Shown: positions 2,273 to 21,246 of the stretch, in pieces
Layout: each line of letters opens with the position of its first letter
Position numbering within the stretch: the first letter of the stretch is position 1
Source: a virus
Strand: one strand, 5' to 3'
DNA: 37,166 nucleotides
IMG/VR virus record: IMGVR_UViG_3300034101_001224
Location: 1 to 37,166 of that record
Notes under the pieces: model-generated
Told to the model about the DNA's origin: nothing
Databases searched by the model: none
What the model saw: the letters and a program-made list of their open reading frames with translations, nothing else
Made by a program: the position numbers and the translations under genes

Positions 2273-2288
2273 CCTTAATCGGTTAAGG
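2273..2288 (+). promoter_or_regulatory. CCTTAA-TCGG-TTAAGG hairpin/operator
   Basis: Six-base-pair stem with a TCGG loop, 25 bases before the start at 2314. Its last two bases are also the first two of a GGTCGGTCAT copy (2287-2296), so the two repeat families abut here. Confidence 0.65.
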
Positions 2289-2296
2289 TCGGTCAT
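2287..2296 (+). repeat. GGWCGGTCAT decamer, copy 1 (T form)
   Basis: GGTCGGTCAT in the intergenic leader of the 63-aa gene. This is the only copy that is clearly outside any reading frame. Confidence 0.75.
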
Positions 2297-2313
2297 TCTG
2301 AATGGAGCGCGCC

Positions 2314-2505
2314 ATGCTTAAATCATCTTTGAATCACAAGGTTACTCGGAAGCCCGCTACAATGATTCGGGTAGTCTGGTGGAATCAATCAGTTGGCGAT
2401 GTTGTCAAGCATTACAAAGCCAAAGGGTTACAGGATTGTGCTCTGATGCGTGGTTTTATTGTAAAGAACTGGCAAGTCGTGCCACCTGTGGCCTACAGCA
2501 AATGA
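2314..2505 (+). CDS. Hypothetical small basic protein, 63 aa
   Basis: I chose the ATG at 2314 rather than the in-frame ATG at 2302 because GGAG (2304-2307) sits six bases before it; the upstream ATG has no ribosome binding site. The protein is small and basic (starting MLKSSLNHKVTRK) with a WWNQS segment and no membrane helix. Family not recognised. Its stop overlaps the next small ORF. Confidence 0.6.
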   Translation: MLKSSLNHKVTRKPATMIRVVWWNQSVGDVVKHYKAKGLQDCALMRGFIVKNWQVVPPVAYSK

Positions 2506-2624
2506 GGTCGGTCATGCGTGCCTATGAATCAATGATGCTGTGGTTCATAGCTTTGCTGTTCAGTATCCTGATATCAATTGATGTTGGGAGTCTTGTTGTT
2601 AATTTCACTTCATGGGGTAAATAA
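2502..2624 (+). CDS. Small single-pass membrane protein, 40 aa
   Basis: ATG at 2502 overlaps the previous stop (ATGA). A second in-frame ATG at 2514 has GAGG about seven bases upstream and may be the true start, giving 36 aa. A hydrophobic span (LWFIALLFSILISIDVGSLV) would cross the membrane once. A GGTCGGTCAT copy ends exactly in the second ATG. Function unknown; small early membrane proteins of phages often alter host envelope or superinfection, but nothing here shows that. Confidence 0.55.
   Translation: MRSVMRAYESMMLWFIALLFSILISIDVGSLVVNFTSWGK
2506..2515 (+). repeat. GGWCGGTCAT decamer, copy 2 (T form)
   Basis: GAGGTCGGTCATG: the copy runs from a Shine-Dalgarno-like GAGG into the ATG at 2514. 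Confidence 0.75.
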
Positions 2625-2836
2625 TGGAAGAAACCCTTAAAATCAAGCCAATCGTGCAATACTTGCCCAGTAATTTCAATGTAATCAAGAAAGGGAAGCG
2701 TGCTTACATCTTCCCTATTGACCATCCGAGCGAGTTGGTCAGTAATAACACAATGGTTATGACTAGTCCTGTTGTTGAGGTAGGTGCAACCTACTTCGAG
2801 ACTGAAAATACCCTTTATTTTATGGAAGGAGCCTGA
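2624..2836 (+). CDS. Hypothetical protein, 70 aa
   Basis: The ATG overlaps the preceding TAA (TAATG), with GGGG about nine bases upstream, so translation is probably coupled. Beta-rich small protein without cysteines or a membrane segment. Hydrophobic strands alternate with a charged N-terminus (MEETLKIKPIVQY). Family not recognised. It is followed one base later by the next gene. Confidence 0.6.
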   Translation: MEETLKIKPIVQYLPSNFNVIKKGKRAYIFPIDHPSELVSNNTMVMTSPVVEVGATYFETENTLYFMEGA

Positions 2837-2837
2837 A

Positions 2838-3107
2838 ATGGAACTATCTACCGAACAAATGATTGAGGTAATGCAGGCCTACCTTGATGGGGAAGATATT
2901 GAAATCCGTCTTCCTCAAGGGAACTGGATTCAAGTGTACGGCCCTAGCTGGAACTGGGATAACAATGATTATCGGGTAAAAGCAAAACCCAAGAAACTGT
3001 ATGCTTTTGTGGAGTCTCGTGGTAGAGTCATTCACAAAATTGATACAGATTCACCGGGGATTGCCTTCAAACGTGCCGAACAATTCGATATTACTTTTGA
3101 GGAGTAA
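2838..3107 (+). CDS. Conserved phage-type hypothetical protein, 89 aa
   Basis: I chose the ATG at 2838 because GGAG (2827-2830) precedes it and it follows the previous stop by one base; an upstream in-frame ATG at 2784 would overlap the neighbour by 53 bases. The segment PSWNWDNNDYRVKAKPKKLY is a pattern I associate with small proteins found in many tailed phages. An acidic N-terminal helix (MELSTEQMIEVMQAYLDGED) precedes it. Cytosolic; role unknown. Confidence 0.7.
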   Translation: MELSTEQMIEVMQAYLDGEDIEIRLPQGNWIQVYGPSWNWDNNDYRVKAKPKKLYAFVESRGRVIHKIDTDSPGIAFKRAEQFDITFEE

Positions 3108-3109
3108 TC

Positions 3110-3256
3110 ATGCTATATAATCAACAATGGCAACAAGTCAAGATCGGACATGGGCAACAAGTGCCTGTATGGGTACGGGAGAAGCTGGAACCATTGCCAC
3201 ACAATGGTCATCCATACTTCCGGCTTGACCAACGTGCCAAGTTCAAGGTAAAATAG
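3110..3256 (+). CDS. Small hypothetical protein, 48 aa
   Basis: ATG at 3110 with GGAG at 3101-3104, two bases after the previous stop; stop TAG at 3254-3256. The protein begins MLYNQQWQQVKIG and ends in a basic tail (RAKFKVK). The spacing, ribosome binding site and same-strand packing with its neighbours support it being real. Family not recognised. Confidence 0.55.
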   Translation: MLYNQQWQQVKIGHGQQVPVWVREKLEPLPHNGHPYFRLDQRAKFKVK

Positions 3257-3292
3257 GCCATAGCCTCATGCCTCTAGCAATGGAGGCATCGG

Positions 3293-3318
3293 GATATATC
3301 CTAATGGTTAGGTATATC
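3293..3318 (+). promoter_or_regulatory. GATATA-(T)-CCTAA / TTAGG-TATATC hairpin
   Basis: An 11-bp palindromic stem with one bulged T and a 3-base TGG loop, 25 bases before the ATG at 3344. The core CCTAA-TGG-TTAGG is a variant of the CCTTAA-N4-TTAAGG elements nearby. An ATGCCTC/GAGGCAT stem (about 3269-3290) lies just upstream without a T-run. Confidence 0.6.
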
Positions 3319-3343
3319 ATTAACTTCTATAGAAAGTAATACA

Positions 3344-3910
3344 ATGAAAAAGATCATTACGCTCCTCGCTGCATCCATGCTGTCTGTTTCTGCCTTTGCT
3401 GGTGGTTCCTTCCTTGGTGATACTACTACGGCCACGGCTATTGCCAACCCCATTGCCAATGCTACTTCTGTGAGCAATGCAACTGCGGTCGGTCATGCCT
3501 CAGCCGTCGTTGGTGTCGTCACCAATCAAGATCAAGTCCAAGGTCAGCTCCAAGGCCAGCAACAAGGCCAAAGCCAAACCAGCAAGCAAGCCAACACACA
3601 ATCCATGACTTATAATGAGTCATCGAATGTGCATTACAGTGGTAAATACACTGTCAAGACCAATGCTGCCGTGTTTGCACCCAATGCCTATGCTTCCAGT
3701 CCTTGTCGTATTGGCCTCAGCGCAGGTGTTAGCGTTGTAGGTCTGGGTCTGAGTGGTGGTGGTTCCGTTGAAGATGAGGGTTGTACCATGCGTGAGAATG
3801 CGCGTATCCTCAATTCTCTTGGTGCCAACGAGGCCGCCTTGCTGCTGATGTGCTCGGATGCTAATGTTGCTCGTGTGCTCAGTATCTGCCCACAACCTGC
3901 TGCTGAATAA
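3344..3910 (+). CDS. Exported low-complexity protein, 188 aa
   Basis: Residues 1-19 are a clear Sec signal peptide: positive N-terminus MKKI, hydrophobic core, and a cleavage site after SAFA. The mature part has an Ala/Thr/Asn stretch of repeated ATA/AN units, a Gln-Gly-rich patch (QVQGQLQGQQQGQSQ), then a compact C-terminal region with four cysteines, a Gly/Ser run and CTMREN. Two disulfides in the periplasm are plausible. The C-terminal pattern resembles a phage family of periplasmic proteins of unknown function. It lies alone between two leader hairpins, so expression may be separately controlled. It could be a periplasmic exclusion or envelope-modifying factor; a virion role is also possible. 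Confidence 0.75.
   Translation: MKKIITLLAASMLSVSAFAGGSFLGDTTTATAIANPIANATSVSNATAVGHASAVVGVVTNQDQVQGQLQGQQQGQSQTSKQANTQSMTYNESSNVHYSGKYTVKTNAAVFAPNAYASSPCRIGLSAGVSVVGLGLSGGGSVEDEGCTMRENARILNSLGANEAALLLMCSDANVARVLSICPQPAAE
3487..3496 (+). repeat. GGWCGGTCAT decamer, copy 3 (T form)
   Basis: Inside the exported-protein gene; read as (G)GTC-GGT-CAT, encoding VGH. Confidence 0.7.
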
Positions 3911-3924
3911 GTAATAAATCCAAG

Positions 3925-3951
3925 CGGCCTCTTAGTTGAGGCTGCTTCAGT
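3925..3951 (+). terminator. Possible terminator hairpin
   Basis: AAGCGGCCTC, a TTAGTT loop and GAGGCTGCTT form a 10-bp stem with one G-T wobble, soon after the stop of the exported-protein gene. The downstream tract (CAGTTTATTG) is only weakly T-rich, so termination may be partial. Confidence 0.5.
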
Positions 3952-3964
3952 TTATTGCTTATAA

Positions 3965-3980
3965 CCTTAAACGGTTAAGG
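3965..3980 (+). promoter_or_regulatory. CCTTAAACGGTTAAGG hairpin overlapping a ribosome binding site
   Basis: Identical to the core at 1426-1441. Here the 3' arm (TTAAGG) continues as AAGGAG, the Shine-Dalgarno of the gene at 3988. Folding would hide part of the ribosome binding site, so this is a candidate translational operator. Confidence 0.65.
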
Positions 3981-3987
3981 AGTTATT

Positions 3988-4209
3988 ATGAAATGGGACT
4001 GGACTAAGGTTCTACTCATCTGTGGTTTGGTTGGTACTTGTGCTATTGCTTACTACCATGTACAAGGGATCAAACGTGAGGTAGTATGCCCATTAGGGCA
4101 GGATAAGTTGGTAACTGTCATTGTTGAAAAGAACAAAGTTACCTGTGTCTACACTAAAGAGCCATTAGGCTTACGGCGGAAATACACAAGGGAAATGTGG
4201 AATGAGTAA
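3988..4209 (+). CDS. Small membrane-anchored protein, 73 aa
   Basis: ATG at 3988 follows AAGGAG by seven bases, and that site is embedded in a hairpin. An N-terminal membrane segment (VLLICGLVGTCAIAYYHV) is followed by a basic, cytoplasmic- or periplasmic-facing tail with two cysteines. The small size and single anchor fit an early phage envelope protein; function unknown. The next gene starts eight bases before this one ends, implying coupling. Confidence 0.65.
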   Translation: MKWDWTKVLLICGLVGTCAIAYYHVQGIKREVVCPLGQDKLVTVIVEKNKVTCVYTKEPLGLRRKYTREMWNE

Positions 4210-4510
4210 GACCCGCTATTACATCATAGCCAAGTGCTATAATAAGCGCGGTGTGCTGATTGGTATGGGTACTAATGACTATAAGAAGTCACATCCATTA
4301 CAGGCATACTTCGCTAAAAGGGTCGGTCATCCTGAGCGTATCTTCCTTCATGCTGAAATTGCTGCTATACTAGCGGCTAGAAGTACCAAGATTCATGAAA
4401 TTCAGGTTGAACGTTATGACGCGGACGGACAACCAGTCTTAGCAAAACCGTGTCCAATATGTGCAGAGGCTATTAAGGCCTTTGGTATCAAGAAAGTGAG
4501 CTATACATGA
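4202..4510 (+). CDS. Cytidine/dCMP deaminase-fold protein, 102 aa
   Basis: Carries the zinc-deaminase signature: His50-Ala-Glu52 (LHAEIAAI) and Pro83-Cys84-Pro-Ile-Cys87 (KPCPICAEA). His50, Cys84 and Cys87 would hold the zinc, and Glu52 would be the proton shuttle. Members deaminate cytosine-containing nucleosides, nucleotides or other bases. At 102 aa it is a minimal fold. Possible role: making dUMP for the ThyX encoded at 21206. The substrate cannot be told from sequence, and phage deaminases of this type sit in varied contexts, including next to modification genes like those downstream. It overlaps both neighbours by a few bases and contains a GGTCGGTCAT copy. Confidence 0.75.
   Translation: MSKTRYYIIAKCYNKRGVLIGMGTNDYKKSHPLQAYFAKRVGHPERIFLHAEIAAILAARSTKIHEIQVERYDADGQPVLAKPCPICAEAIKAFGIKKVSYT
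4321..4330 (+). repeat. GGWCGGTCAT decamer, copy 4 (T form)
   Basis: Inside the deaminase-fold gene, encoding VGH at residues 41-43. Confidence 0.7.
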
Positions 4511-4851
4511 TTAAAGAATCAATTAAGTTATATGATGAACCTGTACCTATGTATTTACAATCCACCTCCCATAGTTGTACCACACAAGAGGAAGTGCTGA
4601 CGGCTATCAATGAGGCCAAAATGGTTGTACGTATTGGTGATAGGTTCCGTTACAAACACAATCCTACCAATGTTATGAAAATCATTGGCTTCGAGGAAAA
4701 TCCGGCCAAAGTCTGCTTTTATAAGGGTGAGGTAGCCCCTATTATCATGCAGAATGAGCGATCAAAGGCCGAGAATAAATATTCTTTGGGTGAGTTGTTT
4801 GATTCTTATATGGAACCGATGGATGGCGAGGAGATTGTAACATCATGCTAA
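4507..4851 (+). CDS. Hypothetical protein, 114 aa
   Basis: Start overlaps the deaminase stop (ATGA), implying coupled translation. Soluble mixed alpha/beta protein without obvious motifs. The central GDRFRYKHNPTNVMKIIGFE resembles a small beta-barrel-like strand pattern seen in uncharacterised phage proteins, but I cannot name the family. The next small ORF starts seven bases before this one ends. Confidence 0.65.
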   Translation: MIKESIKLYDEPVPMYLQSTSHSCTTQEEVLTAINEAKMVVRIGDRFRYKHNPTNVMKIIGFEENPAKVCFYKGEVAPIIMQNERSKAENKYSLGELFDSYMEPMDGEEIVTSC

Positions 4852-5018
4852 AAGTAATCGCAGGTAAGCGTAAGCAGTTTTATGACATCTTTACTGGTGA
4901 CGGTTGGAAAAACTGGAGCAGGTATGTCATGAAACAAGACAAACTGTGTTATCTGGCTGGTAACAAGCTGTCAGCCGTTGAACTTAAGGAGGTCGGTCAT
5001 GTTCTTAATCACGCCTGA
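4845..5018 (+). CDS. Small basic hypothetical protein, 57 aa
   Basis: ATG at 4845 (TCATCATGC) overlaps the upstream gene; stop TGA at 5016-5018. Lys/Tyr/Trp-rich, starting MLKVIAGKRKQFYDIF. The ribosome binding site is GAGGAG at about 4828-4833. Family not recognised. The overlap with the next start (4999) is 20 bases. Confidence 0.5.
   Translation: MLKVIAGKRKQFYDIFTGDGWKNWSRYVMKQDKLCYLAGNKLSAVELKEVGHVLNHA
4991..5000 (+). repeat. GGWCGGTCAT decamer, copy 5 (T form)
   Basis: AAGGAGGTCGGTCATG: follows a strong Shine-Dalgarno and ends in the ATG at 4999, the same arrangement as copy 2. Confidence 0.75.
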
Positions 5019-5232: not shown

Positions 5233-5843
5233 TCCTCTATTCAGCTTCCAAACGTGAATTACGCGACCCTTTCGGTCTGTTTGATGCAGTTGAGTATATT
5301 GAACATCCTGAAAATCTTACATCCGGGGCTTTGATTCTGTGGGGTGGTGAGGATATTGGTACAAGCCTGTATGGTGAGGCACCTAACAGCTTTTGTATGG
5401 GCTTTAAGCCTAGTATGCGTGATTATCGTGAATTACATCTGCTAGGACAGGCCAAAAAGCATGGGCTACCTGTTATCGGTATCTGTCGGGGTGCTCAATT
5501 GATGTGTGTCAAGGCCGGTGGTAAGCTGGCACAGCATATTAGTGGACATGGGCATTCTCATCGTGTTACACTTCATGATGAGGGTGGGGTAGAAATTACC
5601 TGTAATTCCTCACATCACCAGATGATGCTGCCAGACTCAACTGCCAAAATCCTTGCAACTGCCGGGCCTACTACAGGCTTCGGGGCACATGATGTACAGT
5701 ATGAGCATGATCGTGTCAATGAGGTTATATATTTCCCAACCTTAAACGGTTTAGGTATTCAAGCCCACCCAGAGTGGGATGATTGCTCTGCTGAGTTTAT
5801 TTCTTATTGTCGTCGTAAAATCAAGGAGTATCTGCATGTTTAA
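5229..5843 (+). CDS. Class I glutamine amidotransferase (peptidase C26/PuuD-like), 204 aa
   Basis: Catalytic triad visible: the nucleophile Cys86 in the elbow GICRG, and His180 and Glu182 in AHPE near the C-terminus. An oxyanion-type GGEDIG loop is near residue 40. The family either hydrolyses gamma-glutamyl bonds (PuuD-like) or releases ammonia from glutamine for a partner enzyme. Length fits a single GATase-I domain. It opens a block of overlapping genes that also encodes two amidoligases, a class II amidotransferase and an ATP-grasp ligase, so it may trim or recycle a gamma-glutamyl product. A CCTTAAACGGTTTAGG near-palindrome lies inside the gene at 5740-5755. Confidence 0.85.
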   Translation: MILYSASKRELRDPFGLFDAVEYIEHPENLTSGALILWGGEDIGTSLYGEAPNSFCMGFKPSMRDYRELHLLGQAKKHGLPVIGICRGAQLMCVKAGGKLAQHISGHGHSHRVTLHDEGGVEITCNSSHHQMMLPDSTAKILATAGPTTGFGAHDVQYEHDRVNEVIYFPTLNGLGIQAHPEWDDCSAEFISYCRRKIKEYLHV

Positions 5844-6261: not shown

Positions 6262-6262
6262 T

Positions 6263-7024
6263 ATGATTAAGTTTTCCATCGGGTGTGATCCCGAATTCTT
6301 TCTGACACAGAACAATAATTATAAGTCAGCGGTTGGCCTGATTGGTGGTAGTAAGTGGGCACCCAAACCAATCGACAAGGACGGTCATGCCATCCTTGAG
6401 GATAACGTAGCAGTAGAATTTAACATCGCCCCGGCCAGTACCTATGAGGCCTTCCGGGCTAGTATTCACAAGGTTCTTGACCATTGCCGGTCAATTTTAC
6501 CCGGCTATGAATTCAGCCATTCTAGTGCCATTTCTTTCCCTGAGGATGAACTAAATACACCACAAGCACAAGAGTTTGGATGTGAGCCTGATTATAATGC
6601 TTGGACTCAACGACGTAATCCGAAGCCACAAGCCAAGGATGAGAACTTACGCTCGGCAGGTGGGCATATTCATGTTGGTAATGATGTAGCTATTGAGCGC
6701 CCACTAGAGGTGATTCAGGCTATGGACTTGTTCCTTGGTGTCCCTGCTCATGTGTTGGACAATGGGGAATTACGTAAGGAACTCTATGGTAAGGCCGGAT
6801 GCTTCCGCCCGAAGCCATATGGTTGTGAGTATCGTACCTTATCCAACTTCTGGATTTGGGAAGACTCTCTTATTAAATGGGCCTATGATGGTACACAACG
6901 TGCCCTTGAATTTGTGGCACAGGGTAACAAATTGTCTGAAAAGGACGGTCATCTAATTCAGATGTGTATCAACAACAACGACCATGAGGCATACAAACAA
7001 CTGCAGGGAGTATATGCACTATGA
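6263..7024 (+). CDS. phiEco32-like COOH-NH2 ligase (amidoligase type 2), 253 aa
   Basis: Matches from memory the phage amidoligase family of the glutamine-synthetase/GCS fold. Metal/ATP-binding acidic motifs are GCDPEFF (Glu11) and EDNVAVEFN (Glu46 and Glu52). Histidines occur in RSAGGHIHVG (His135, His137), and a late GCEYRTLSNFW (Glu189, Arg191) fits the conserved E-x-R element. Such enzymes use ATP to join a carboxylate to an amine. The gene is in the middle of the overlapping block, two bases after the GNAT-like gene and overlapping the next by four. Substrate unknown. Two copies of the GGACGGTCAT decamer are inside it. Confidence 0.85.
   Translation: MIKFSIGCDPEFFLTQNNNYKSAVGLIGGSKWAPKPIDKDGHAILEDNVAVEFNIAPASTYEAFRASIHKVLDHCRSILPGYEFSHSSAISFPEDELNTPQAQEFGCEPDYNAWTQRRNPKPQAKDENLRSAGGHIHVGNDVAIERPLEVIQAMDLFLGVPAHVLDNGELRKELYGKAGCFRPKPYGCEYRTLSNFWIWEDSLIKWAYDGTQRALEFVAQGNKLSEKDGHLIQMCINNNDHEAYKQLQGVYAL
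6379..6388 (+). repeat. GGWCGGTCAT decamer, copy 6 (A form)
   Basis: Inside the first amidoligase gene, encoding KDGH. Confidence 0.7.
6943..6952 (+). repeat. GGWCGGTCAT decamer, copy 7 (A form)
   Basis: Inside the first amidoligase gene near its 3' end, again encoding KDGH. Confidence 0.7.
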
Positions 7025-8789: not shown

Positions 8790-10043
8790 ATGTGTGGATT
8801 AATTGCAGCAATCTCTAAAGGTAATCAAGGTTTTGAATATAAGGCCGACCTTATCTTTACCCAAATGCTCTATGCCAATGCTCTACGGGGTATGGACAGC
8901 ACTGGCCTGTATGGTATCAATAAACATGGCAATCTTGATATGCTGAAGTCAGCGCAGCCTTCTGCTGACTTTATCCGTACCCCAGAGGCTAAGGAATTTA
9001 TTGATAAAATCTATATGAATTACCGGATTGTGGTCGGTCATAATCGTGCTGCCACAAAAGGTGCAGTCAAGGACGAAAATGCCCACCCCTTTATTGAAAA
9101 TAACATCTGCCTAGTACATAATGGTACGCTGTATAATCATAAACAGTTAAAGGATGTGGATGTAGATAGCCATGCTATTACTCATGCTCTGGCTGAGGGT
9201 AAAGCAGAGGATGTTATCCCAAGCCTTGATGGTGCTTTTGCCCTTATTTGGTATGATGCAGCAAAGAAAAAGCTGTTTATTACACGAAATAATGAACGGC
9301 CTCTTTATCTTGTGGAAACAGAGAAAACTGACTATATTGCCAGTGAAGATTCCATGCTAGAATGGCTGCTAGCCCGTAATGGCCACGCCAAGGTAACAGC
9401 TAAATACTTCAAACCACATCAGTTATACTCCTATGATCTTGATAAGCTGTCTGAAGGTTTTGATGTGGAGGAATTGCAAGAAAAAAAGCTATTACCAGTC
9501 GTGGAAAGAACAGTACCTCTACGGCTGGTGAGTCAATCACAACCACATGGCACAAAATCATCGGAGAAATGTTTCTATAAGTTCTATAAGTACGGGGACG
9601 TTATTCCGCTTGAATGGAAGAAAACACAGTATAATGGCGAACTAGTAATCATGCATGGTATTACTCTAGATAGCACAGAGACTGCATGGTCCTATGCCTG
9701 TAAGGCAAATGCCTATGATAATTACACTGGTGTTGATTCCTTCCTTGGCACAACAACAGGTGTTTCCTATAAGGATGGTAAGGCAACCCTGATTATGGGT
9801 TCCCTGAAACCGGAACAGTATCATGTATCTTGTAATGATGTCTGTGTCTCTGAGCTGGAGGTAATGAATCATAATGATGGATGTTGTGATCTATGTAATT
9901 CTATTATTGATTTTGATACTGAGCAATTCTGGGTTAGGTATAAGGGAGGACAACTGAAGACAGTGCACTGCGAATCCTGTGTAAGCAAGAATGGTAACCT
10001 GAAACATTTTCTAGAGAAAGCGAAAAATGATGCCACATTGTAA
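8790..10043 (+). CDS. Class II glutamine amidotransferase with zinc-ribbon tail, 417 aa
   Basis: Starts MCGLIAAI: Cys2 becomes the N-terminal nucleophile of the Ntn fold after Met removal, which fixes the start at 8790. Glutamine-site elements follow: RGMDSTG (33-39), GHNRAATKG (83-91), NAHPF (97-101) and HNGTLYNH (110-117). The last roughly 75 residues hold CNDVC, CCDLC and CESC pairs typical of a zinc ribbon. I see no synthetase domain, so ammonia is probably delivered to a separate partner such as the amidoligase or ATP-grasp enzyme next door. The zinc tail could bind that partner, RNA or a carrier. It overlaps the ATP-grasp gene by 17 bases and contains decamer copy 8. Confidence 0.85.
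   Translation: MCGLIAAISKGNQGFEYKADLIFTQMLYANALRGMDSTGLYGINKHGNLDMLKSAQPSADFIRTPEAKEFIDKIYMNYRIVVGHNRAATKGAVKDENAHPFIENNICLVHNGTLYNHKQLKDVDVDSHAITHALAEGKAEDVIPSLDGAFALIWYDAAKKKLFITRNNERPLYLVETEKTDYIASEDSMLEWLLARNGHAKVTAKYFKPHQLYSYDLDKLSEGFDVEELQEKKLLPVVERTVPLRLVSQSQPHGTKSSEKCFYKFYKYGDVIPLEWKKTQYNGELVIMHGITLDSTETAWSYACKANAYDNYTGVDSFLGTTTGVSYKDGKATLIMGSLKPEQYHVSCNDVCVSELEVMNHNDGCCDLCNSIIDFDTEQFWVRYKGGQLKTVHCESCVSKNGNLKHFLEKAKNDATL
9032..9041 (+). repeat. GGWCGGTCAT decamer, copy 8 (T form)
   Basis: Inside the class II amidotransferase gene; it encodes the VGH of the conserved GHNR motif. Confidence 0.7.
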
Positions 10044-10800
10044 TCGTGTAGTGATTATCCCCTACCTGCTTGGTTCTAACTCCGCCAAGGGGCTGCAAAC
10101 AGCCTTGCAGGGGCTACTTAATGTCCCTGTACTACGCGTATCCAAGTATAGCAAGAAGTATCAACCCCGATATACTGACTATGTAATTAACTGGGGATGC
10201 TCGAATCCTTGGGACTTTATCACCTTGGACAAGAAGGACGGTCATAAACAGGCCGTCAATAAGCTTCAATTCTTTCAAACGGCGCAGGGTAAAGTCAATA
10301 TCCCAGAGTGGACAACAAGCCAACAACAAGCACAGGCGTGGAGTGCTGCCGGTAAGACAGTGATTGGCCGCAAAATCCTTAACGGGAACTCTGGTAAGGG
10401 TATTGTTGTCTACGAACCAAACACTACTGTGGGGGAGTGCCCACTCTATACTCTGTATAAAAAGAAGAGACATGAGTTCCGTGTGCATGTTTTCAAAGGT
10501 AATGTGATTGATGTAGCCCAAAAGAAAAAGAAGAAAGGGTATGAGAATGTCGATAGCAAAATTAGAAACCACAAAACAGGATGGGTATTCTGCCGAGAAA
10601 ATATTATTGAGCCGGCGGGACTTCGTACTCAGGCTATTCAAGCCTTGGCTGCTTGTGGCCTTCCTTTTGGCGCTGTTGATATAATCTGGAATGAGGCAGA
10701 AGACAAGTGTTATGTGCTAGAGATTAATACTGCTCCGGGTATTGAAGGGAGCACTCTCCAGTATTATACCAATGCTTTTTTTAAGGATATTACAAAATGA
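10027..10800 (+). CDS. ATP-grasp ligase (RimK/glutathione-synthetase-like), 257 aa
   Basis: ATP-grasp features in order: Lys116 followed by the phosphate loop NGNSGKGIV (119-127); HEFRVHVFKG (149-158) with the E-x-R element; a lysine cluster in AQKKKKKG; GAVDIIWNE with Asp218; and LEINTAPG with Glu232 and Asn234 as magnesium ligands. The family activates a carboxylate as acylphosphate and joins it to an amine or thiol, often adding amino acids to peptides. A compact single-chain form. The start overlaps the amidotransferase by 17 bases; an adjacent ATG at 10030 is equally possible. It contains decamer copy 9. Confidence 0.85.
   Translation: MMPHCNRVVIIPYLLGSNSAKGLQTALQGLLNVPVLRVSKYSKKYQPRYTDYVINWGCSNPWDFITLDKKDGHKQAVNKLQFFQTAQGKVNIPEWTTSQQQAQAWSAAGKTVIGRKILNGNSGKGIVVYEPNTTVGECPLYTLYKKKRHEFRVHVFKGNVIDVAQKKKKKGYENVDSKIRNHKTGWVFCRENIIEPAGLRTQAIQALAACGLPFGAVDIIWNEAEDKCYVLEINTAPGIEGSTLQYYTNAFFKDITK
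10236..10245 (+). repeat. GGWCGGTCAT decamer, copy 9 (A form)
   Basis: Inside the ATP-grasp gene, encoding KDGH. Confidence 0.7.
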
Positions 10801-11534
10801 AATTTGAAGTAACAGAATACAATAAGGGTATTGGTGTAGAATCGCAAGACCTTGAGGTACAGTTTGCCTTTGCTGTTAAAGGGAAAGACGATACATACAC
10901 CAATATCTGTGACTTTAGCATCTGTCGTGATTTCCTTGGGGATGTTGTCGTAGCTAATGTTACAGGAAAATCATGTAGTATCTATGGGTTTTCTTATAAT
11001 CCAAAGAAACAGAAGAAGATGGACATGGCGCATACCTACCTAGCCTTGCGTAGTACCCCAGAGGTTCTACAGAGTTTCAAGGAAAACCTTAACCGTTTTA
11101 GGTCATGGTTAGGTAATATGATTGGTCATCATAATTACTTTAATATCATCGAAGTTGACACATCTGACGTTATTGTGGTACAATGTAATCCTTGGTGGCA
11201 AACAACAACTGTAGGTATTTCTTATCTATCCTATCTTTTCAAGTGTCTTTGCTGGAAACTACCAGAAGATAAAGCAAAGTTGTTTGATGCTATTCTGGCC
11301 CTTGAGAGTAAAGAAACCCCATGTAAAGAGGCTAGATATATCCGTAATTTAACCAAGGAAGCGCAGTACCTACTACAGAATCTGGAAAAACTCTCATATG
11401 CCCACACAACACCACATGGTTATCCAGAACTAGAACAGCACATTAGTAAAGTACATAATAACTCAGGTTTTAACTTTACCATTCAATGGAAACGTGATAC
11501 ACTTGCTGGTAAATTTATAGCGGAGATGGTATAA
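10797..11534 (+). CDS. Unknown protein of amidoligase block, 245 aa
   Basis: Overlaps the ATP-grasp gene (ATGA) and the next gene by one base. Soluble, with a beta-rich N-terminal half (LEVQFAFAVKGKDDTYTNIC) and a helical C-terminal half. Six cysteines are scattered without a zinc pattern. Family not recognised. The tight coupling points to a role in the same pathway. CCTTAACCGTTTTAGG at 11087-11102 resembles the early hairpin core but is within coding sequence and less symmetric. Confidence 0.65.
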   Translation: MKFEVTEYNKGIGVESQDLEVQFAFAVKGKDDTYTNICDFSICRDFLGDVVVANVTGKSCSIYGFSYNPKKQKKMDMAHTYLALRSTPEVLQSFKENLNRFRSWLGNMIGHHNYFNIIEVDTSDVIVVQCNPWWQTTTVGISYLSYLFKCLCWKLPEDKAKLFDAILALESKETPCKEARYIRNLTKEAQYLLQNLEKLSYAHTTPHGYPELEQHISKVHNNSGFNFTIQWKRDTLAGKFIAEMV

Positions 11535-11863
11535 TGGACTACCTTGATGTCACTGATATAGATAGTTGGTGTGCTGGTAAAAATGTATCAGGCCTAACTG
11601 CTGATGTACTTAATAAGTATAGTAAATCATATATAATCTCTAAAGTGCTTGAGGAAGGGGGGTCGGTCATCCTTGTGACTGTTAATGAGACAGAAACGGA
11701 AGTTATGGAGAAATTAAAAGAGTGGGGATTCACCAAAGGTAAATGGTTTAGGAATTGGGGGCATTCTGGCCGACGGACCTGTATATATACCTATCAAATC
11801 TCCAAGGAAGATTGGCTAGATGCAGGTAATACTATAGGTTCTTTTGATAATTGGGAATGGTGA
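11534..11863 (+). CDS. Hypothetical protein, possibly GNAT C-half-like, 109 aa
   Basis: Last gene of the overlapping block. Strand (SVILVTVNE), helix (VMEKLKEWGF), then GRRTCIYTYQI resembles the closing strand-helix-strand of acetyltransferase folds and loosely parallels the end of the protein at 5836-6261. It is too short for a complete GNAT. It ends in a Trp-rich acidic tail (GSFDNWEW). Decamer copy 10 lies in a different reading phase here. Function unassigned. Confidence 0.55.
   Translation: MDYLDVTDIDSWCAGKNVSGLTADVLNKYSKSYIISKVLEEGGSVILVTVNETETEVMEKLKEWGFTKGKWFRNWGHSGRRTCIYTYQISKEDWLDAGNTIGSFDNWEW
11661..11670 (+). repeat. GGWCGGTCAT decamer, copy 10 (T form)
   Basis: Inside the 109-aa gene but read as GGG-TCG-GTC-ATC (GSVI), a different phase from copies 3, 4 and 6-9. 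This argues that the DNA, not the peptide, is conserved. Confidence 0.75.
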
Positions 11864-13598: not shown

Positions 13599-14329
13599 GC
13601 CATGTAATCAAGCACGAGACGTGCCCAAGGTGTGCAGCTAATGGTAGAGACAGGACTGGTGATAATCTGGCTATCTATGATGATGGCGGTAGTTATTGTT
13701 TTTCTTGTGGTTATTTCCAATCGGCTAGGGGTTTCCAATCTATTAGCAGAGAGGCAACTGGAACTGCAAAAACGCTTACTATTCCATATGACTGTACAGA
13801 CAGAATACCTGATGTCGGAAGAGAATTCCTTGCCAGATATTCCATTGGGGAATATGACCTTGCATTAAATAACATCCTGTGGTCTGAAAAATACCAACGC
13901 TTGGTCTTCCCTATTATTGTGGAGGGTGAGCTATTAGCTTGGCAGGGCAGATATCTAGGCACTGAACCAAAGAAAGCTAAATGGTTTACCCAAGGGGAGA
14001 TAGACAAGATTACCTATATATTAGGGAATCCTTATATGGAAGACCTTATTCTAGTAGAGGATATACTGTCAGCTATCAAGATTAGTACCACAGGAATACA
14101 TAGAGCAATGCCTATTTTTGGTAGTCATATCTCAGCTAAACGCCTCTTGACAATTAAACGATTTTGTGGTATGGAAATCACCATTTGGTTGGACAGAGAT
14201 AAGGCAAAAGAAGCAGTAGGCTTTGCCTATTTAGCACGGAATTTGGGGCTGAAAGCAAGGACGGTCATTACTGAAAAAGACCCAAAAGAGTATTCTAAGC
14301 AGGAGATTATAGAAATACTTGACAAGTAG
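13595..14329 (+). CDS. DNA primase (T7 gp4 N-terminal-like), 244 aa
   Basis: N-terminal zinc site Cys10-x2-Cys13 and Cys35-x2-Cys38 (CPRC, CFSC), as in T7-type primases, then a Toprim-like catalytic part with LVEDILSA (Glu155, Asp156) and IWLDRDKA (Asp200, Asp202). It would make RNA primers on single-stranded DNA. In T7, primase and helicase are one protein; here the helicase is a separate gene downstream. The promoter for that gene (14319-14347) lies over the last codons of this one. Decamer copy 11 is inside the gene in a shifted reading phase. Confidence 0.85.
   Translation: MSHVIKHETCPRCAANGRDRTGDNLAIYDDGGSYCFSCGYFQSARGFQSISREATGTAKTLTIPYDCTDRIPDVGREFLARYSIGEYDLALNNILWSEKYQRLVFPIIVEGELLAWQGRYLGTEPKKAKWFTQGEIDKITYILGNPYMEDLILVEDILSAIKISTTGIHRAMPIFGSHISAKRLLTIKRFCGMEITIWLDRDKAKEAVGFAYLARNLGLKARTVITEKDPKEYSKQEIIEILDK
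14259..14268 (+). repeat. GGWCGGTCAT decamer, copy 11 (A form)
   Basis: Inside the primase gene, read AGG-ACG-GTC-ATT (RTVI), the same phase as copy 10 and different from the rest. Confidence 0.75.
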
Positions 14330-15866: not shown

Positions 15867-16107
15867 TATCCCTATTAACATTTCTATTGCCGCACCTAAC
15901 GAACAACGTGCAGTAAATGAGGTGTTTGATTTCTTACGGAAGGCGTATAATGAGTTTGGACCAGAGCACTGTGTCACAAATTGGGAATACTTTGAATTCA
16001 TTACTGAAGAGAGTGGTAACACTGGATGTGGAGACTACAACCCAACACAAGGGGGATGTGCATGCCCTACAGACAAAGTTAGTGACGATTCAGGTAAAGG
16101 TAAATGA
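15856..16107 (+). CDS. Small protein overlapping polymerase start, 83 aa
   Basis: Starts 11 bases before the previous stop. Residues 1-51 (MKYDIPINISIAAPNEQR to FEFITEE) read like a real small alpha/beta domain. The remaining 32 residues are Gly/Cys/Asp-rich and read across the first codons of the polymerase exonuclease domain in another frame, so they look like overrun. Either the overlap of about 95 bases is genuine, or a frame change joins this domain to the polymerase. Confidence 0.5.
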   Translation: MKYDIPINISIAAPNEQRAVNEVFDFLRKAYNEFGPEHCVTNWEYFEFITEESGNTGCGDYNPTQGGCACPTDKVSDDSGKGK

Positions 16108-17146
16108 TGAGAAGCCACTCATCTATACAAATGAAAATTTTAGAGACTGTATTCCTGTCCTCGCTAGTGCTTCCTGTATTGTTGGTACTAATCTTAAGTT
16201 TGATCTGGCTTGGGTATGGTCTATTCTCAATTGGAAGCCCACTACCATTTGGGACTTACAAATAGCAGAGTTCCTGTTCAGCAAGCAGATGTGGAAGTAC
16301 CCCGATCTCAATACCATGTGTTTGAACTATGGTCTGGAAACAAAACTAGACATTGTCAAGACAGAGTATTGGGAGAAGGGTATAGACACTGATGCAATTC
16401 CTATTGAAATACTCTCAGAGTATGGGGCACATGACTGCAACCTTACCTATGAGGTATTTAAACGTCAGGTAGAGCGATTCTGTGCGTCTGAGGGGCATAT
16501 GTTCAGGTTGTTCAGGGTGCAATGTAACGATCTTTTAGTGCTCCTTGAGATGGAGAATAACGGGATTGTATATAACTCTGAGAAATCTATAGCTTTTTCC
16601 AAGGATTTGGAAGACAGGATGAAGGAAGTAGAGGGGCAGGTGTATCAATTCACTCGTGGAGTACCTGTGAATCTTGGTAGCCCTGAGCAGGTGTCGAAGT
16701 TACTCTACGGTGGGCAACTGACAGTTAAGACACGGATACCTAATGGTGTATATAAGACTGGGGCTAAGACAGGCCAGATCAAGTATATGATTAAGGAGAA
16801 TGTGTTTGAGTTCCCACGCTTGGTTGAGCCATTAAAAGGCACAGAGAAAGTAAAAGAAGGTATCTGGGCCACTGATATGGATACTTTGGTATCACTTAAG
16901 GCTACAAAGCTCACTAAGCACCTGATAGGCCTCTTGCTGGAATGGTCTAAGCTGGAGAAGATGGTAACAACTTATCTGCTAGGACTACCAAAGAAGATAG
17001 AGAAGAATGATTGGCCTCCTAACATGCTTTTTAGCAGCCTAAATCAATGTTTAGCTGTGACAGGGAGACTGAGTAGTTCCAATCCCAACCAGCAAAATTT
17101 CTGCAAGGAAGTTAAGAAATTCTGTGAGAGTAGGTATGATAATTAA
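16013..17146 (+). CDS. Family A DNA polymerase, N-terminal part: 3'-5' exonuclease and thumb/palm start, about 377 aa
   Basis: I placed the start at the GTG at 16013, so the protein begins (M)VTLDVETTT with exonuclease motif I at Asp5 and Glu7, the same numbering as in T7 polymerase. An ATG at 15950 would give about 21 further residues of weak sequence. Exo II (TNLKFDLAW) and Exo III (YGAHDCNLTY) are present. The C-terminus carries LAVTGRLSSSNPNQQN, the conserved T-G-R-L-SSS-PN-Q segment that precedes motif A. The frame then stops at 17146, before motif A, which is encoded in the next ORF. So proofreading and template-binding parts are here and the catalytic palm is separate. Confidence 0.8.
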   Translation: MVTLDVETTTQHKGDVHALQTKLVTIQVKVNDEKPLIYTNENFRDCIPVLASASCIVGTNLKFDLAWVWSILNWKPTTIWDLQIAEFLFSKQMWKYPDLNTMCLNYGLETKLDIVKTEYWEKGIDTDAIPIEILSEYGAHDCNLTYEVFKRQVERFCASEGHMFRLFRVQCNDLLVLLEMENNGIVYNSEKSIAFSKDLEDRMKEVEGQVYQFTRGVPVNLGSPEQVSKLLYGGQLTVKTRIPNGVYKTGAKTGQIKYMIKENVFEFPRLVEPLKGTEKVKEGIWATDMDTLVSLKATKLTKHLIGLLLEWSKLEKMVTTYLLGLPKKIEKNDWPPNMLFSSLNQCLAVTGRLSSSNPNQQNFCKEVKKFCESRYDN

Positions 17147-17873
17147 CGTCGATTCAAAAAGCTTAGAGTGGTGTACTTATTTGTTCTTATCGCAAGACCT
17201 AACAGGTATTAAGGAGTGGGAAGGTGTTGTACTTGATCCATCTAAGAATGATATCCATACAGCGAATCAATTGGCATTCAAACTTCCATCACGCCTAATC
17301 GCTAAAGTATTTCTGTTTAGATGGATTTATAGAGGATCAGCCTTTGCTTATAGCAAGGACCCTGACTTTACCCCTGTATCAAAGTCTGTGGAGTTCTGGC
17401 AGGACGTAATTGATGTTTATTACGCCAAGTATCCTAAGTTGTACGATACCCACATGAGGTATATTAAGGAAGCCACACAGACGAGTAGGATCATAAGCCC
17501 TTTTGGTAGGGAGTATGTGTTTAGTCAGTACAAAAACAAAAGAGGAGAGATGCTGTGGTCTGAAAATGACATAACTAATTGGCCTAATCAAGGCTGTGGG
17601 GCAGATGTAATGGCAGTAGCCCGAATTGCTGCCTATCAACGTGTTAAACGAGCCGGACTAACAGGTAAATTAATCAGCACTGTCCATGATTCTATCGTAG
17701 CGGATGTCCCTGCTAATGAAAAGGATGAATGGTGTGGTATTTTTAATGAGGTCTTTATTGACTTACCTGAATTAATCACTAAATCCTATGGTGTGGAATG
17801 GAATGTACCTATGGTAGGTGAAGTTAGCTGTGGTCCAAACATGCTTGATCTAGAAGATGTTAAGTTCGCTTGA
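17136..17873 (+). CDS. Family A DNA polymerase, C-terminal part: catalytic palm and fingers, 245 aa
   Basis: The ATG at 17136 overlaps the upstream stop by 11 bases (ATGATAATTAA). It begins MIINVDSKSLEW, which is motif A (Asp6, Glu11, as D-x4-E in T7). Motif B/O-helix is PSRLIAKVFLFRWIYRG (Arg53, Lys57), NQGCGADVMA is the next conserved block, and motif C is TVHDSIVADV with His184-Asp185. The common HDE has become HDS. The catalytic aspartates are kept, so the pair of ORFs should form one active enzyme, either as two chains or by a +1 shift. A GTG at 17124 is an alternative start. Its stop is inside the -35 of the next promoter. Confidence 0.8.
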   Translation: MIINVDSKSLEWCTYLFLSQDLTGIKEWEGVVLDPSKNDIHTANQLAFKLPSRLIAKVFLFRWIYRGSAFAYSKDPDFTPVSKSVEFWQDVIDVYYAKYPKLYDTHMRYIKEATQTSRIISPFGREYVFSQYKNKRGEMLWSENDITNWPNQGCGADVMAVARIAAYQRVKRAGLTGKLISTVHDSIVADVPANEKDEWCGIFNEVFIDLPELITKSYGVEWNVPMVGEVSCGPNMLDLEDVKFA

Positions 17874-17898
17874 CAAGATCACAAAAGAGTGGTATAAT
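17870..17898 (+). promoter_or_regulatory. Sigma70 promoter with extended -10 before SSB-like gene
   Basis: TTGACA (17870-17875), 17-base spacer, TATAAT (17893-17898), with TG one base before the -10 (GTGGTATAAT). Its first bases overlap the polymerase stop codon. An AGGAG ribosome binding site follows at about 17911 and the ATG at 17922, so the leader is very short. Confidence 0.85.
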
Positions 17899-17921
17899 AT
17901 TAGTATCAATAGGAGAAATAT

Positions 17922-18473: not shown

Positions 18474-18477
18474 TCAA

Positions 18478-18508
18478 AGGGGGAGGAAACTCCCCCTATT
18501 TTCTTTTG
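18478..18508 (+). terminator. Rho-independent terminator after SSB-like gene
   Basis: GGGGGAG (18479-18485), GAAA loop, CTCCCCC (18490-18496), then TATTTTCTTTT. With the promoter at 17870 it makes the SSB-like gene a single-gene unit. Only a weak candidate promoter (TTGAAA at 18506, 15-base spacer, TATGAT at 18527) follows, so downstream genes may rely on read-through or antitermination. Confidence 0.85.
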
Positions 18509-18514
18509 AAACCT

Positions 18515-18694
18515 ATGCTAAGATTGTATGATTTTTACTGCAACAACTGTGAGAAGTTCTATGAGGCCCTCACTTCGGAAACTGCTAGTACGCTGTGTCC
18601 TCATTGTAATTCAACTAATACTGAAAGGCGCATCTCTGTTTCCCACTTCAAGGTCACAGGGCAAGGTGCCTATTCAAACAAAATGAAAGTATAA
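18515..18694 (+). CDS. FmdB-like zinc-ribbon protein, 59 aa
   Basis: YDFYCNNCEKFYEAL followed by CPHCNSTNTERRIS gives two CxxC pairs in the arrangement of FmdB-type regulatory zinc ribbons, ending in a basic tail. ATG at 18515; an in-frame TTG at 18506 exists. Neither has a clear ribosome binding site, and the purine-rich arm of the terminator hairpin is the only nearby candidate. The stop abuts the exonuclease start. Confidence 0.65.
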   Translation: MLRLYDFYCNNCEKFYEALTSETASTLCPHCNSTNTERRISVSHFKVTGQGAYSNKMKV

Positions 18695-19444
18695 ATGAAA
18701 GTCCTGACTGATGGCGATATTGTCGCCTACCGTTGTGCTGCCACAGTTGATTCTACTATGGAGAAGGACGTAGCATTCTATCGCATGGATGTGCTGCTCC
18801 AGCAGATTCTGGAAGCAACAGAAGCAGACCAACAAGAAGTATGGCTTACAGGTAGTGATAACTTCCGCAAGGTAGTCTATCCTGAGTACAAAGCTAACCG
18901 AAAGGACACCGTTCCACCCTGCTATTTGCAAGATTGTCGTGAGTACCTTGTAGCAAACCACAAGGCTAAGGTATCACATGGGTGTGAAGCAGATGATATG
19001 TTAGGGGTTAATCAAACGGACGATACGATTATCGCCACTATTGATAAAGACCTTTTAATGATCCCCGGTAAGCATTACAATTGGGTGAAGATGACCATCA
19101 AGAATGTGCCGTATCTAGATGGCCTAAAGCACTTCTACAAACAGATGCTGATTGGTGATAGGTCAGATAATGTAATTGGTGTTAGTCGTGTTGGTGAGGT
19201 GAAAGCTGATAGGTACATTACCCCCTTGGACAATGAGCAGGATATGTTGGATGTGGTCTGTGAGTTATATAATGATCCAGCCCGATTCGTCATGAACGCT
19301 GCATGTCTTTGGATACAACAAAAAGAAGAAAAAGAAACATGGATGACACACGCAAAGCAGGTGGGCTTGACTTTAAACAGCGAATTACAACAAGAGGCGG
19401 AAGCGATGTTAAACTTTATGAAGTCTTTGAAGGAAACTACATAA
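18695..19444 (+). CDS. 5'-3' exonuclease (FEN/pol I N-domain-like), 249 aa
   Basis: Metal-binding acidic residues of the flap-nuclease fold are all visible: DGD (6-8), YKANRK (65-70), CEADD (97-101), IDKD (116-119) and GDRSDN (154-159), followed by a helix-hairpin-helix-like GVSRVGEVKADR. The enzyme would remove RNA primers and flaps, which fits the polymerase here lacking that domain. It starts directly after the previous stop. The last 106 bases overlap the next small gene. Confidence 0.85.
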   Translation: MKVLTDGDIVAYRCAATVDSTMEKDVAFYRMDVLLQQILEATEADQQEVWLTGSDNFRKVVYPEYKANRKDTVPPCYLQDCREYLVANHKAKVSHGCEADDMLGVNQTDDTIIATIDKDLLMIPGKHYNWVKMTIKNVPYLDGLKHFYKQMLIGDRSDNVIGVSRVGEVKADRYITPLDNEQDMLDVVCELYNDPARFVMNAACLWIQQKEEKETWMTHAKQVGLTLNSELQQEAEAMLNFMKSLKETT

Positions 19445-19587
19445 ACGGGGCATGGTATGAGAAAGAGCGTGATGTATGGTATCCCTGCCAATGGACATGG
19501 GAAGGCACATATGCCTCACGTTCATCTAGCCTTGATCTAATTAACCCAACTGTGCTACGTAGGCGGAGATTACCAGATGCTTCCTAA
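19339..19587 (+). CDS. Hypothetical protein, 82 aa
   Basis: I chose the ATG at 19339; an upstream in-frame ATG at 19303 gives 12 more residues. It overlaps the exonuclease by about 100 bases. The core GNYINGAWYEKERDVWYPCQ followed by SLDLIN is a pattern of small proteins found beside replication genes in podoviruses, but I do not know its role. Basic C-terminus (RRRRLPDAS). The ribosome binding site is weak. Confidence 0.55.
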   Translation: MDDTRKAGGLDFKQRITTRGGSDVKLYEVFEGNYINGAWYEKERDVWYPCQWTWEGTYASRSSSLDLINPTVLRRRRLPDAS

Positions 19588-19957
19588 GCGGCGTAGCAGG
19601 TTAGAGCAACGCTTTGAGGAGATTCTTAGGGATAATGATGTAAAGTATAAGTATGAGGTTACAAAAATCTCATATATTATCCCTGAGAGTTCTCATACAT
19701 ATACGGTAGATTGGACTATAGATAAGAAACTCTTGATCGAAACCAAGGGCTATCTTAGTGATTATTCCGAACGTAGGAAGTATGTGTTACTGAAAGAACA
19801 GCACCCTGACCTTGACTTGCGCTTCGTGTTTGACAATCCCAATAAATTATGTGGTGGGACCAAGATGACACATGCCAAGTGGGCAGAGAAATATGAGTTT
19901 ACTTATTGTAGTATTAAAGATACGGAGACTATCCTGAAATGGGTTCAAGAGTCCTAG
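19577..19957 (+). CDS. Endonuclease I-like Holliday-junction resolvase, 126 aa
   Basis: PD-(D/E)xK nuclease with spacing like T7 endonuclease I: Glu10, Asp45 (TVDWTIDKK), Glu55 and Lys57 (LIETKGYL). Then a conserved KEQHPDLDLRFVFDNPNK segment and KMTHAKWAEKYEF match the T7 gp3 family order. It resolves branched DNA before packaging and can degrade host DNA. Size (126 aa) is close to the family (149 in T7). It overlaps both neighbours. Confidence 0.85.
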   Translation: MLPKRRSRLEQRFEEILRDNDVKYKYEVTKISYIIPESSHTYTVDWTIDKKLLIETKGYLSDYSERRKYVLLKEQHPDLDLRFVFDNPNKLCGGTKMTHAKWAEKYEFTYCSIKDTETILKWVQES

Positions 19958-20100
19958 TAAAATTGCGATACTCAGATGGAACTGAGAAGATCGGTGTGTT
20001 TGAGACACAAAAAGAACTTGATTGGTTTATTCACAATGAGGGAGATCATCTAGTAGAGGTCTCATATATCGACGATGACTGTTCATCTAATAATTCCTGA
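19939..20100 (+). CDS. Small hypothetical protein, 53 aa
   Basis: ATG at 19939 inside the end of the endonuclease gene; stop TGA at 20098-20100. Beta-rich start (MGSRVLVKLRYSDGTEKIG) and acidic C-terminus (IDDDCSSNNS). No recognised family. Supported by overlap with both flanking genes and by sensible protein composition. Confidence 0.5.
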   Translation: MGSRVLVKLRYSDGTEKIGVFETQKELDWFIHNEGDHLVEVSYIDDDCSSNNS

Positions 20101-20839
20101 CACACAGGCTAAGTATGGGGAAGACTTCACCTACCTAAATCGGATTGGTAAGTATATTGTAGAGAAAAAACCAGATGTAATCGTACATCTAGGTGACTTT
20201 GCAGATATGGAGAGTCTGAGCAGCTATGATGTAGGTAAGAGGTCTTTTGAGGGTAAACGCTATGTTAAAGACATTGAAGCGGCACAAGATGCGATGGAGT
20301 CGCTTATGGGGCCTATCAAGGAGTTTAATATTAGAGCGAAAAAGAACAAGGAGAAAGCCTACAAACCTCGAATGGTACTCACATTGGGGAACCATGAGCA
20401 GCGAATACTACGCGCAATTGAGAATGATCCGAAACTTGAAGGGTTAATTAAATATGAAGACCTTCCGTACCAAGATTGGGAAGTACATGATTTTCTATCC
20501 CCTGTATTTATTGATGGGGTTGCTTACAGTCATTATTTTCCTACCGGCGTTCTGGGTCGCCCTGCTTCTAGTGCTTCCGCTATGGTTAGCAAGTTACATA
20601 TGTCGTGCATTGCCGGCCATCAGCAAGGTCGCCAAGTCGCCTATGGAAAGCGCCCAGATGGTTCTACCATTACATGTATCATCACAGGTAGCTGCTACGA
20701 GCACGACGAAGGATACCTAGACCATCAGAGCAATAAGCACTGGCGCGGTATAATTCTTCTGCACGAGGTCGAAAATGGTTCGTTTGATGAGATGTTTGTA
20801 AGTCTCAATTACCTAAGAAAGAGATATAATGGTACATAA
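20075..20839 (+). CDS. Calcineurin-like metallophosphoesterase, 254 aa
   Basis: Metal-site motifs in order: PDTQ (Asp9), HLGDFAD (Asp41), LGNHEQR (Asn106, His107, Glu108), then SHYFP and CIAGHQQG. The first site has Gln two residues after Asp rather than the usual D-x-H. The family hydrolyses phosphodiesters, and phage members have been linked to DNA or nucleotide processing. It lies between the resolvase and the DUF3310-like gene in the replication block. Exact substrate unknown. Confidence 0.8.
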   Translation: MTVHLIIPDTQAKYGEDFTYLNRIGKYIVEKKPDVIVHLGDFADMESLSSYDVGKRSFEGKRYVKDIEAAQDAMESLMGPIKEFNIRAKKNKEKAYKPRMVLTLGNHEQRILRAIENDPKLEGLIKYEDLPYQDWEVHDFLSPVFIDGVAYSHYFPTGVLGRPASSASAMVSKLHMSCIAGHQQGRQVAYGKRPDGSTITCIITGSCYEHDEGYLDHQSNKHWRGIILLHEVENGSFDEMFVSLNYLRKRYNGT

Positions 20840-21035
20840 CATTCCAGCACACTATTCAGATACACAATTAATGGATTATTTGATTAGTCATAATATTCCG
20901 TGGGCTGAGGGTAATATTTGTAAGTATGTGGCCCGGTGGAGAGGTAAGGATGGTTTGCGTGATCTGTACAAAGCACGAGACTACCTGAATGCCCTGATTG
21001 CTTTTGAAGAGATGAGGATGCCAATTGCCGATTGA
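20829..21035 (+). CDS. DUF3310-like protein, 68 aa
   Basis: HYSDTQLMDYLISH and GNICKYVARWRGKDGLRDLY then KARDYLNALI match the DUF3310 pattern (sometimes annotated as nucleotide kinase, without proof). Small, helical and cytosolic, common in T7-like and other lytic phages near replication genes. It overlaps the phosphoesterase gene by 11 bases. Confidence 0.75.
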   Translation: MVHNIPAHYSDTQLMDYLISHNIPWAEGNICKYVARWRGKDGLRDLYKARDYLNALIAFEEMRMPIAD

Positions 21036-21246
21036 TATTGACACTTTAGACGAAGAGGGTATCAAGCGATTACGACCTATGACGGTCGGTCATGATAACT
21101 CACTTCTCTATGATGGCTTACGCTCTTGTATGCAGCGTAATGCTGAACTACAACAGGCCTTGCTGGATTCAGCAGAAATGATTGAGCGGTTAACAAGGGA
21201 ATTAAGTGAAAATCGAGCTACTACAGATAACACCCGATGCTGCTAA
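21025..21246 (+). CDS. Hypothetical coiled-coil protein, TTG start, 73 aa
   Basis: Start taken as the TTG at 21025 because GAGG (21014-21017) lies seven bases upstream and a stop codon at 21013 closes the frame before it. The C-terminal half (RNAELQQALLDSAEMIERLT) is a likely coiled coil. Decamer copy 12 lies inside. It overlaps DUF3310 and ThyX. No recognised family. Confidence 0.5.
   Translation: MPIDIDTLDEEGIKRLRPMTVGHDNSLLYDGLRSCMQRNAELQQALLDSAEMIERLTRELSENRATTDNTRCC
21084..21093 (+). repeat. GGWCGGTCAT decamer, copy 12 (T form)
   Basis: Rightmost copy, encoding VGH in the coiled-coil ORF. It is separated by almost 7 kb from copy 11. Confidence 0.7.

Follow-up and report, generated by a model that had tools for sequence, protein, structure and literature searches.

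The decamer GGWCGGTCAT, repeated on one strand of the 37,166-base IMG/VR fragment IMGVR_UViG_3300034101_001224 (hereafter the window), is very probably a diverged variant of the nick site of phage tf and its LUZ24-type relatives, because the corresponding words of related phages grade into the proven nick motif of tf. Nicks in one strand of phage DNA were already recognised in the 1960s, and no purpose is known for them. In the proposed mechanism the decamer would be the recognition sequence of the phage's strand-specific nickase, which would cut the early-sense strand at GGWCG/GTCAT and leave virion DNA with about twelve one-strand interruptions, densest at the early end. The most likely enzyme is PHROG 4590, a small HNH-like protein whose specificity would have drifted together with its sites. 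The tf nick motif is thus extended to a graded series over many uncultured phages, nick sites become predictable from sequence alone and a small unannotated protein is named as candidate nickase. A natural strand-specific nickase with a site of about nine bases, if true, would be an unusual enzyme.

Twelve exact copies of the decamer were counted in the window, eight in the T form and four in the A form, all on the plus strand and none on the minus strand, exactly as an earlier reading of the letters (the sequence-only reading) had listed them. That reading had suggested a codon-preserving shuffle and a count in related phages as checks, and both were run. Dinucleotide shuffles of the window gave an expectation of 0.06 copies with a largest shuffled count of 1. 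Shuffling synonymous codons within each gene did not reproduce similar counts either, with nine copies fully inside coding sequence compared to 0.76 expected (0.04 expected on the minus strand). No one-mismatch copies were present (about 2.4 expected), a deficit that alone is not significant. The early and replication genes occupy the plus strand from about 1.5 to 24 kb, and the tail and other late genes the minus strand from 24.3 to 37.1 kb. A density falling with distance from the left had also been described; this held in that none of the 12 copies lay in the late block (P = 0.005 under uniform placement), whereas leftward crowding inside the early block was only modest (Kolmogorov-Smirnov P = 0.04). 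The two coding phases described earlier were found again, with the eight copies in main open reading frames (ORFs) split six and two, and the copies at 2287, 2506 and 4991 were indeed located in leaders or at start codons.

Graded motif variants among relatives

Relatives were selected by homology of their ligase and ribonucleotide reductase, not by motif, and dispersed 8-letter words were counted without prior assumption, using reversed words as controls. In most motif-bearing records the highest-ranking word confined to one strand belonged to a single series, consisting of GTCGGTCA, GTCGATCA, GTCGATAA, GTCTATCA, ATCTATCA, TACTATCA, TACTATGA and TACTGTGA. Along the chain from GTCGGTCA to TACTGTGA neighbours are one base apart, save ATCTATCA to TACTATCA, and GTCGATAA branches off at GTCGATCA, from which it differs by one base. 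Across the relatives the words run in the order GGTCGGTCAT, GGTCGATCAT, GGTCTATCA, ATCTATCAY, TACTATCA, TACTATGAC and tf's TACTGTGAC. Each genome carried essentially one variant, with variants mutually exclusive between genomes, and the motif-bearing records stood clear of the reversed-word controls; the other relatives did not. An isolate, Alcaligenes phage QDWS535, carries the GGTCGATCAT variant with 11 GGTCGATCA sites. Between homologous proteins of different phages the sites fell at differing columns and in differing frames with few positions in common, and these shifts together with the codon shuffle support, at the level of DNA, the earlier suggestion that selection acts on the nucleic acid rather than the peptide.

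Phage tf has 14 nicks, all on the top strand at TACT/RTGMC, of which 11 lie in its left half; just three more sites are one substitution away from the motif, and none of these is nicked (PMC3517423). Its nick sites are annotated in record HE611333, and the nicked strand is early-sense, like the strand of the window motif. Aligning GWCG/GTCAT with TACT/RTGMC predicts the cut GGWCG/GTCAT. A reading of the motif as the reverse complement of RTGMC was dropped because the nicked tf strand is also early-sense.

Many of the few late-region copies in several relatives keep the early-sense DNA strand and so are antisense to the late genes; some single late-region copies sit on the other strand, which may be chance. 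In a contig with two early regions head to head (G038) the motif strand flips along with the early region. Judged from these orientations, the strand rule is a property of the DNA molecule. Within G038 itself (L153, L154; contig 3300020045_001862) two diverged early regions meet at about 5.5-6.7 kb, both with a ligase and a motif orientation of their own; the contig is either a chimera or a rearranged genome.

Two further observations concern repeated words. In G055 and G056 the motif appears longer and bipartite, with GGTCGATA followed by CA a few bases on, and the HNH subtype is also distinct. L023, L043 and L044 contain other highly repeated words on one strand, e.g., ACCTTAGCG 18-24 times, that are unrelated to the nick series.

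Several points weigh against the reading as a nick site. Homology to the tf motif rests on the intermediates because several positions differ, and the step from ATCTATCA to TACTATCA takes two changes. The motif is mostly opposite to the early genes in G042 (L160-L162) and G047 (L189, L190). The tf and Rembedalsseter forms themselves (TACTRTGMC/WACTRTGAC) are not enriched in the window (2 matches, 3.1 expected), and nicks in the window virus are inferred by analogy with those two phages.

Other functions had been offered by the sequence-only reading alongside strand-specific nick sites; the comparison strongly supports the latter, and primase, antitermination and Chi-like sites gain nothing from it. 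An RNA or transcription signal of the early operon (an antitermination site, RNA-binding site or phage promoter) would account for 12 of 12 copies having the sense orientation of the transcribed early genes and crowding to the early end. It is nonetheless improbable, since late-region copies in several relatives keep their DNA strand, which makes them antisense to the late genes there, sites sit at arbitrary positions and phases within genes, the homologous sites of tf are physically nicked in both of its transcription units (PMC3517423) and sigma-70-like matches in the region were not above shuffles. The genome-wide strand polarity and enrichment in the replication half also fit a polarised process such as a primase, replication-protein or Chi-like site. 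Phage nicks have no known function, and a role in recombination has been proposed (PMC11780129). By itself, however, a replication or recombination signal leaves unexplained both the grading into the tf nick motif and the prediction of the motif from the HNH nuclease subtype (below), and we give it a slightly smaller chance still. Chance, codon usage or a protein motif (DGH/VGH) was refuted by the tests and is practically negligible: six of the eight main-ORF copies do read xGH in one phase, but both shuffles gave expectations below one, the other copies lie outside genes or in another phase, and in relatives the motif comes back at non-homologous positions.

PHROG 4590 as candidate nickase

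PHROG 4590, a protein of about 95 residues annotated as "unknown function", was found in 21 of 21 near-complete motif-bearing relatives by clustering of all ORFs, and no other small nuclease-like family occurred in all 21. Residues R36, H56, N70 and N79 are invariant and include catalytic residues of HNH type. An AlphaFold model (pLDDT 76) has two strands and a short helix placed as would be expected for the beta-beta-alpha metal fold of HNH proteins. Pfam HNH matches were weak and restricted to few members, and sequence and fold searches of the PDB gave nothing significant, with best matches that include HNH nucleases all at E > 1. In about 20 relatives the gene adjoins the small terminase gene, mostly with the large terminase on its other side. 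This neighbourhood, and the late reappearance of nicks reported for phikF77 (PMC3517423), suggests a nicking step at or near packaging.

Because relatives have the order small terminase - HNH, the PHROG 4590 gene of the window virus is expected just left of base 1. Contig L276, 99.5% identical to window positions 1-1296, extends leftwards beyond them through the small terminase, an endonuclease VII-like HNH gene, PHROG 4590 and the large terminase. The core of its PHROG 4590 is of the GGTCGGTCAY type, matching the prediction from the window motif. The endonuclease VII-like gene between small terminase and PHROG 4590 (L276 1373-2129; L278 646-960) is possibly a mobile endonuclease insertion.

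Covariation was measured by how well pairwise protein identity separated same-motif from different-motif genome pairs (area under the curve, AUC). Two HNH subgroups use GTCGGTCA with differing flanks (GGTCGGTCAY and RGTCGGTCAN). Splitting the GTCGGTCA class gave the HNH protein an AUC of 0.996, the top of all genes tested, a value that depends on a split made after the HNH groups were seen. Late genes reached 0.61 to 0.72 on pairs where the HNH protein was mostly at about 0.99 (for the large terminase, 0.72 compared to 0.83). Prediction was then extended to an out-of-sample set of 160 loci from HNH-based scans, with contigs already used removed before counting. New loci with a GTCGGTCA-type HNH had 83 copies of G[AT]CGGTCA, every one on the expected strand and 0 on the opposite strand, and GTCGATCA once in all. 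In new loci with a GTCGATCA-type HNH and enough upstream sequence, the counts (expected/opposite strand) were 20/6 for GTCGATCA compared to 5/4 for G[AT]CGGTCA. Because the contigs are related, this result is support and not independent proof.

On covariation and out-of-sample prediction, the assignment of the enzyme to PHROG 4590 is a good hypothesis with about an even chance of being right. The fuller proposal is tentative and falls just short of an even bet: PHROG 4590 would be the nickase so far missing for the tf/LUZ24 group and for its wide range of uncultured relatives, acting strand-specifically on a site of 9-10 bases and tying the nicks to packaging, and its specificity would have drifted through at least eight variants with a dozen genomic sites moving along. 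Among the open-licence papers searched, none named PHROG 4590 as a nickase, and those read give no nickase for the tf group.

Besides the late class split and the relatedness of the contigs, further results count against the assignment. PHROG 4590 also occurred in 11 of 15 motif-negative relatives (Fisher P = 0.02 from presence/absence alone); a gapped-word scan for hidden motifs in the HNH-bearing motif-negative relatives gave low-complexity coding words only. With coarse motif classes the HNH AUC (0.904) was below those of primase (0.969) and polymerase (0.959). Gene-tree parsimony, tried as a means of singling out the HNH protein, was not discriminating, as the trees of several other genes agreed with the motif classes almost equally, and shared ancestry confounds the link between HNH protein and motif. 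New loci with a GTCTATCA-type HNH gave a weak prediction (4/1). Finally, PHROG 4590 of L276 has lost its usual N-terminus (MPFMSHGKRDY) by frameshift, as has that of L278; a downstream ATG could still yield a protein with the catalytic residues.

A serious alternative, to which we give rather less than an even chance, is that the motif is a nick site for some other nickase (endonuclease I, another late protein or a T5-like protein pair) and that PHROG 4590 is a packaging HNH protein with no more than a common ancestry with the motif. The many motif-negative relatives with the HNH gene, the almost equal fit of primase and polymerase trees and the altered N-terminus in the window virus are all consistent with this, as is the requirement of T5 nicking for two late genes (PMC3517423). 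It is opposed by the lack of a second small nuclease-like family reaching all 21 relatives, by the late genes beside the HNH gene, which track the motif poorly on genome pairs where the HNH protein tracks it well, and by the distribution of endonuclease I (window 19577-19957), which was rejected as the nickase with only 12 of 21 motif-positive and 5 of 15 motif-negative relatives carrying it. The early family tf_02/PaP3 ORF70 was also rejected; it had the best presence/absence contrast, but showed no recognisable nuclease features and turned up in just some of the motif-bearing records.

Sites and other features of the window

By its genes the window virus is a podovirus-like phage, distant kin of the LUZ24/PaP3/tf group, and it has a LUZ24-like early gene set. 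This comprises a COOH.NH2 ligase (common to PaP3 and tf, among others), amidoligase, glutamine amidotransferase, ATP-grasp protein, primase, helicase, split family A polymerase, 5'-3' exonuclease, endonuclease I, metallophosphoesterase, thyX and ribonucleotide reductase. No nucleotide match of the window to known phages was found, and no phage record is close at the DNA level.

Table 1. Copies of the decamer with their predicted cuts (/), and the terminase gene at the left end of the window
Feature	Positions	Strand	Sequence	Location and remarks
Motif copy 1	2287..2296	+	GGTCG/GTCAT	Predicted nick 2291/2292; leader ahead of ORF 2302; first two bases overlap palindrome 2273-2288
Motif copy 2	2506..2515	+	GGTCG/GTCAT	Gene junction; its AT opens an ATG
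Motif copy 3	3487..3496	+	GGTCG/GTCAT	Within ORF 3344-3910
Motif copy 4	4321..4330	+	GGTCG/GTCAT	Within deaminase-like ORF 4202-4510
Motif copy 5	4991..5000	+	GGTCG/GTCAT	Overlaps Shine-Dalgarno (AAGGAGG) and ATG of ORF starting 4999
Motif copy 6	6379..6388	+	GGACG/GTCAT	COOH.NH2 ligase gene
Motif copy 7	6943..6952	+	GGACG/GTCAT	COOH.NH2 ligase gene
Motif copy 8	9032..9041	+	GGTCG/GTCAT	Glutamine amidotransferase gene
Motif copy 9	10236..10245	+	GGACG/GTCAT	ATP-grasp gene
Motif copy 10	11661..11670	+	GGTCG/GTCAT	Other coding phase; ORF 11534-11863
Motif copy 11	14259..14268	+	GGACG/GTCAT	Other coding phase; primase gene
Motif copy 12	21084..21093	+	GGTCG/GTCAT	Small ORF 21025-21246, upstream of thyX
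Small terminase gene	1..496	-		Truncated by the left end of the contig

A palindrome-like element, CCTTAAWCGGTTWAGG, occurs at 1426-1441, 2273-2288, 3965-3980, 5740-5755 and 11087-11102 (four exact copies and one weaker), where 0.05 matches would be expected with up to two mismatches allowed. Three of the copies lie ahead of early genes, and the element, which was not found in the other fetched relatives, looks like an operator or regulator site. The DNA polymerase is encoded by two overlapping ORFs (15917-17146 and 17124-17873); a sequencing error was considered and dropped, and the split is probably real because the polymerases of Alcaligenes phage QDWS535 and ctOsX528 share it. Very AT-rich TATA-type repeats at 690-870, where the small terminase and early genes diverge, mark a possible origin or control region.

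Comparison with known nick systems

Phage tf is alike in having about a dozen sites on one strand only, densest in the early half and with few near-miss copies. Both phages have the COOH.NH2 ligase, amidoligase, amidotransferase, ATP-grasp protein, primase, polymerase, exonuclease and endonuclease I, and tf encodes the PHROG 4590 HNH protein (tf 16129-16416). The consensus differs (TACTRTGMC compared to GGWCGGTCAT), the nicks of the window virus are predicted ones, and the HNH gene of tf, like that of PaP3, is located in the early block and not beside the terminase. In Pseudomonas phage Rembedalsseter 13 nicks were mapped, each at WACTRTGAC, on one strand and unevenly spread (PMC11780129), a consensus that again differs from the window motif. 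The survey of this phage and 60 relatives (PMC11780129) counted only WACTRTGAC, so the other variants fell outside it.

The sequence-only reading had remarked that the nick motifs known from T5 and phiKMV-type phages are different ones, and neither was enriched in the window: the phiKMV motif CCTACTCCGG had one 1-mismatch copy (0.87 expected) and the T5 motif RGCGCRGG two copies (1.4 expected). The phiKMV group (CGACxxxxxCCTA/CTCCGG; phikF77) shares sequence-specific one-strand nicks; its early gene set differs and phikF77 has no PHROG 4590 match. T5 (R/GCGCRGG) has one-strand interruptions in virion DNA, which are only predicted for the window virus, and its nicking maps to sciA and sciB.

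HK97 gp74, the phage Gamma HNH nickase (ACCGR) and GVE2 HNHE are, like PHROG 4590, small HNH proteins that are often terminase-adjacent, and several phage proteins of this kind nick DNA (PMC8845596, PMC5304195). Unlike these packaging and nicking proteins, PHROG 4590 has an alignment without CxxC zinc pairs, has weak Pfam HNH matches and no significant PDB match, and would recognise a site of about 9-10 bases compared to 3-5.

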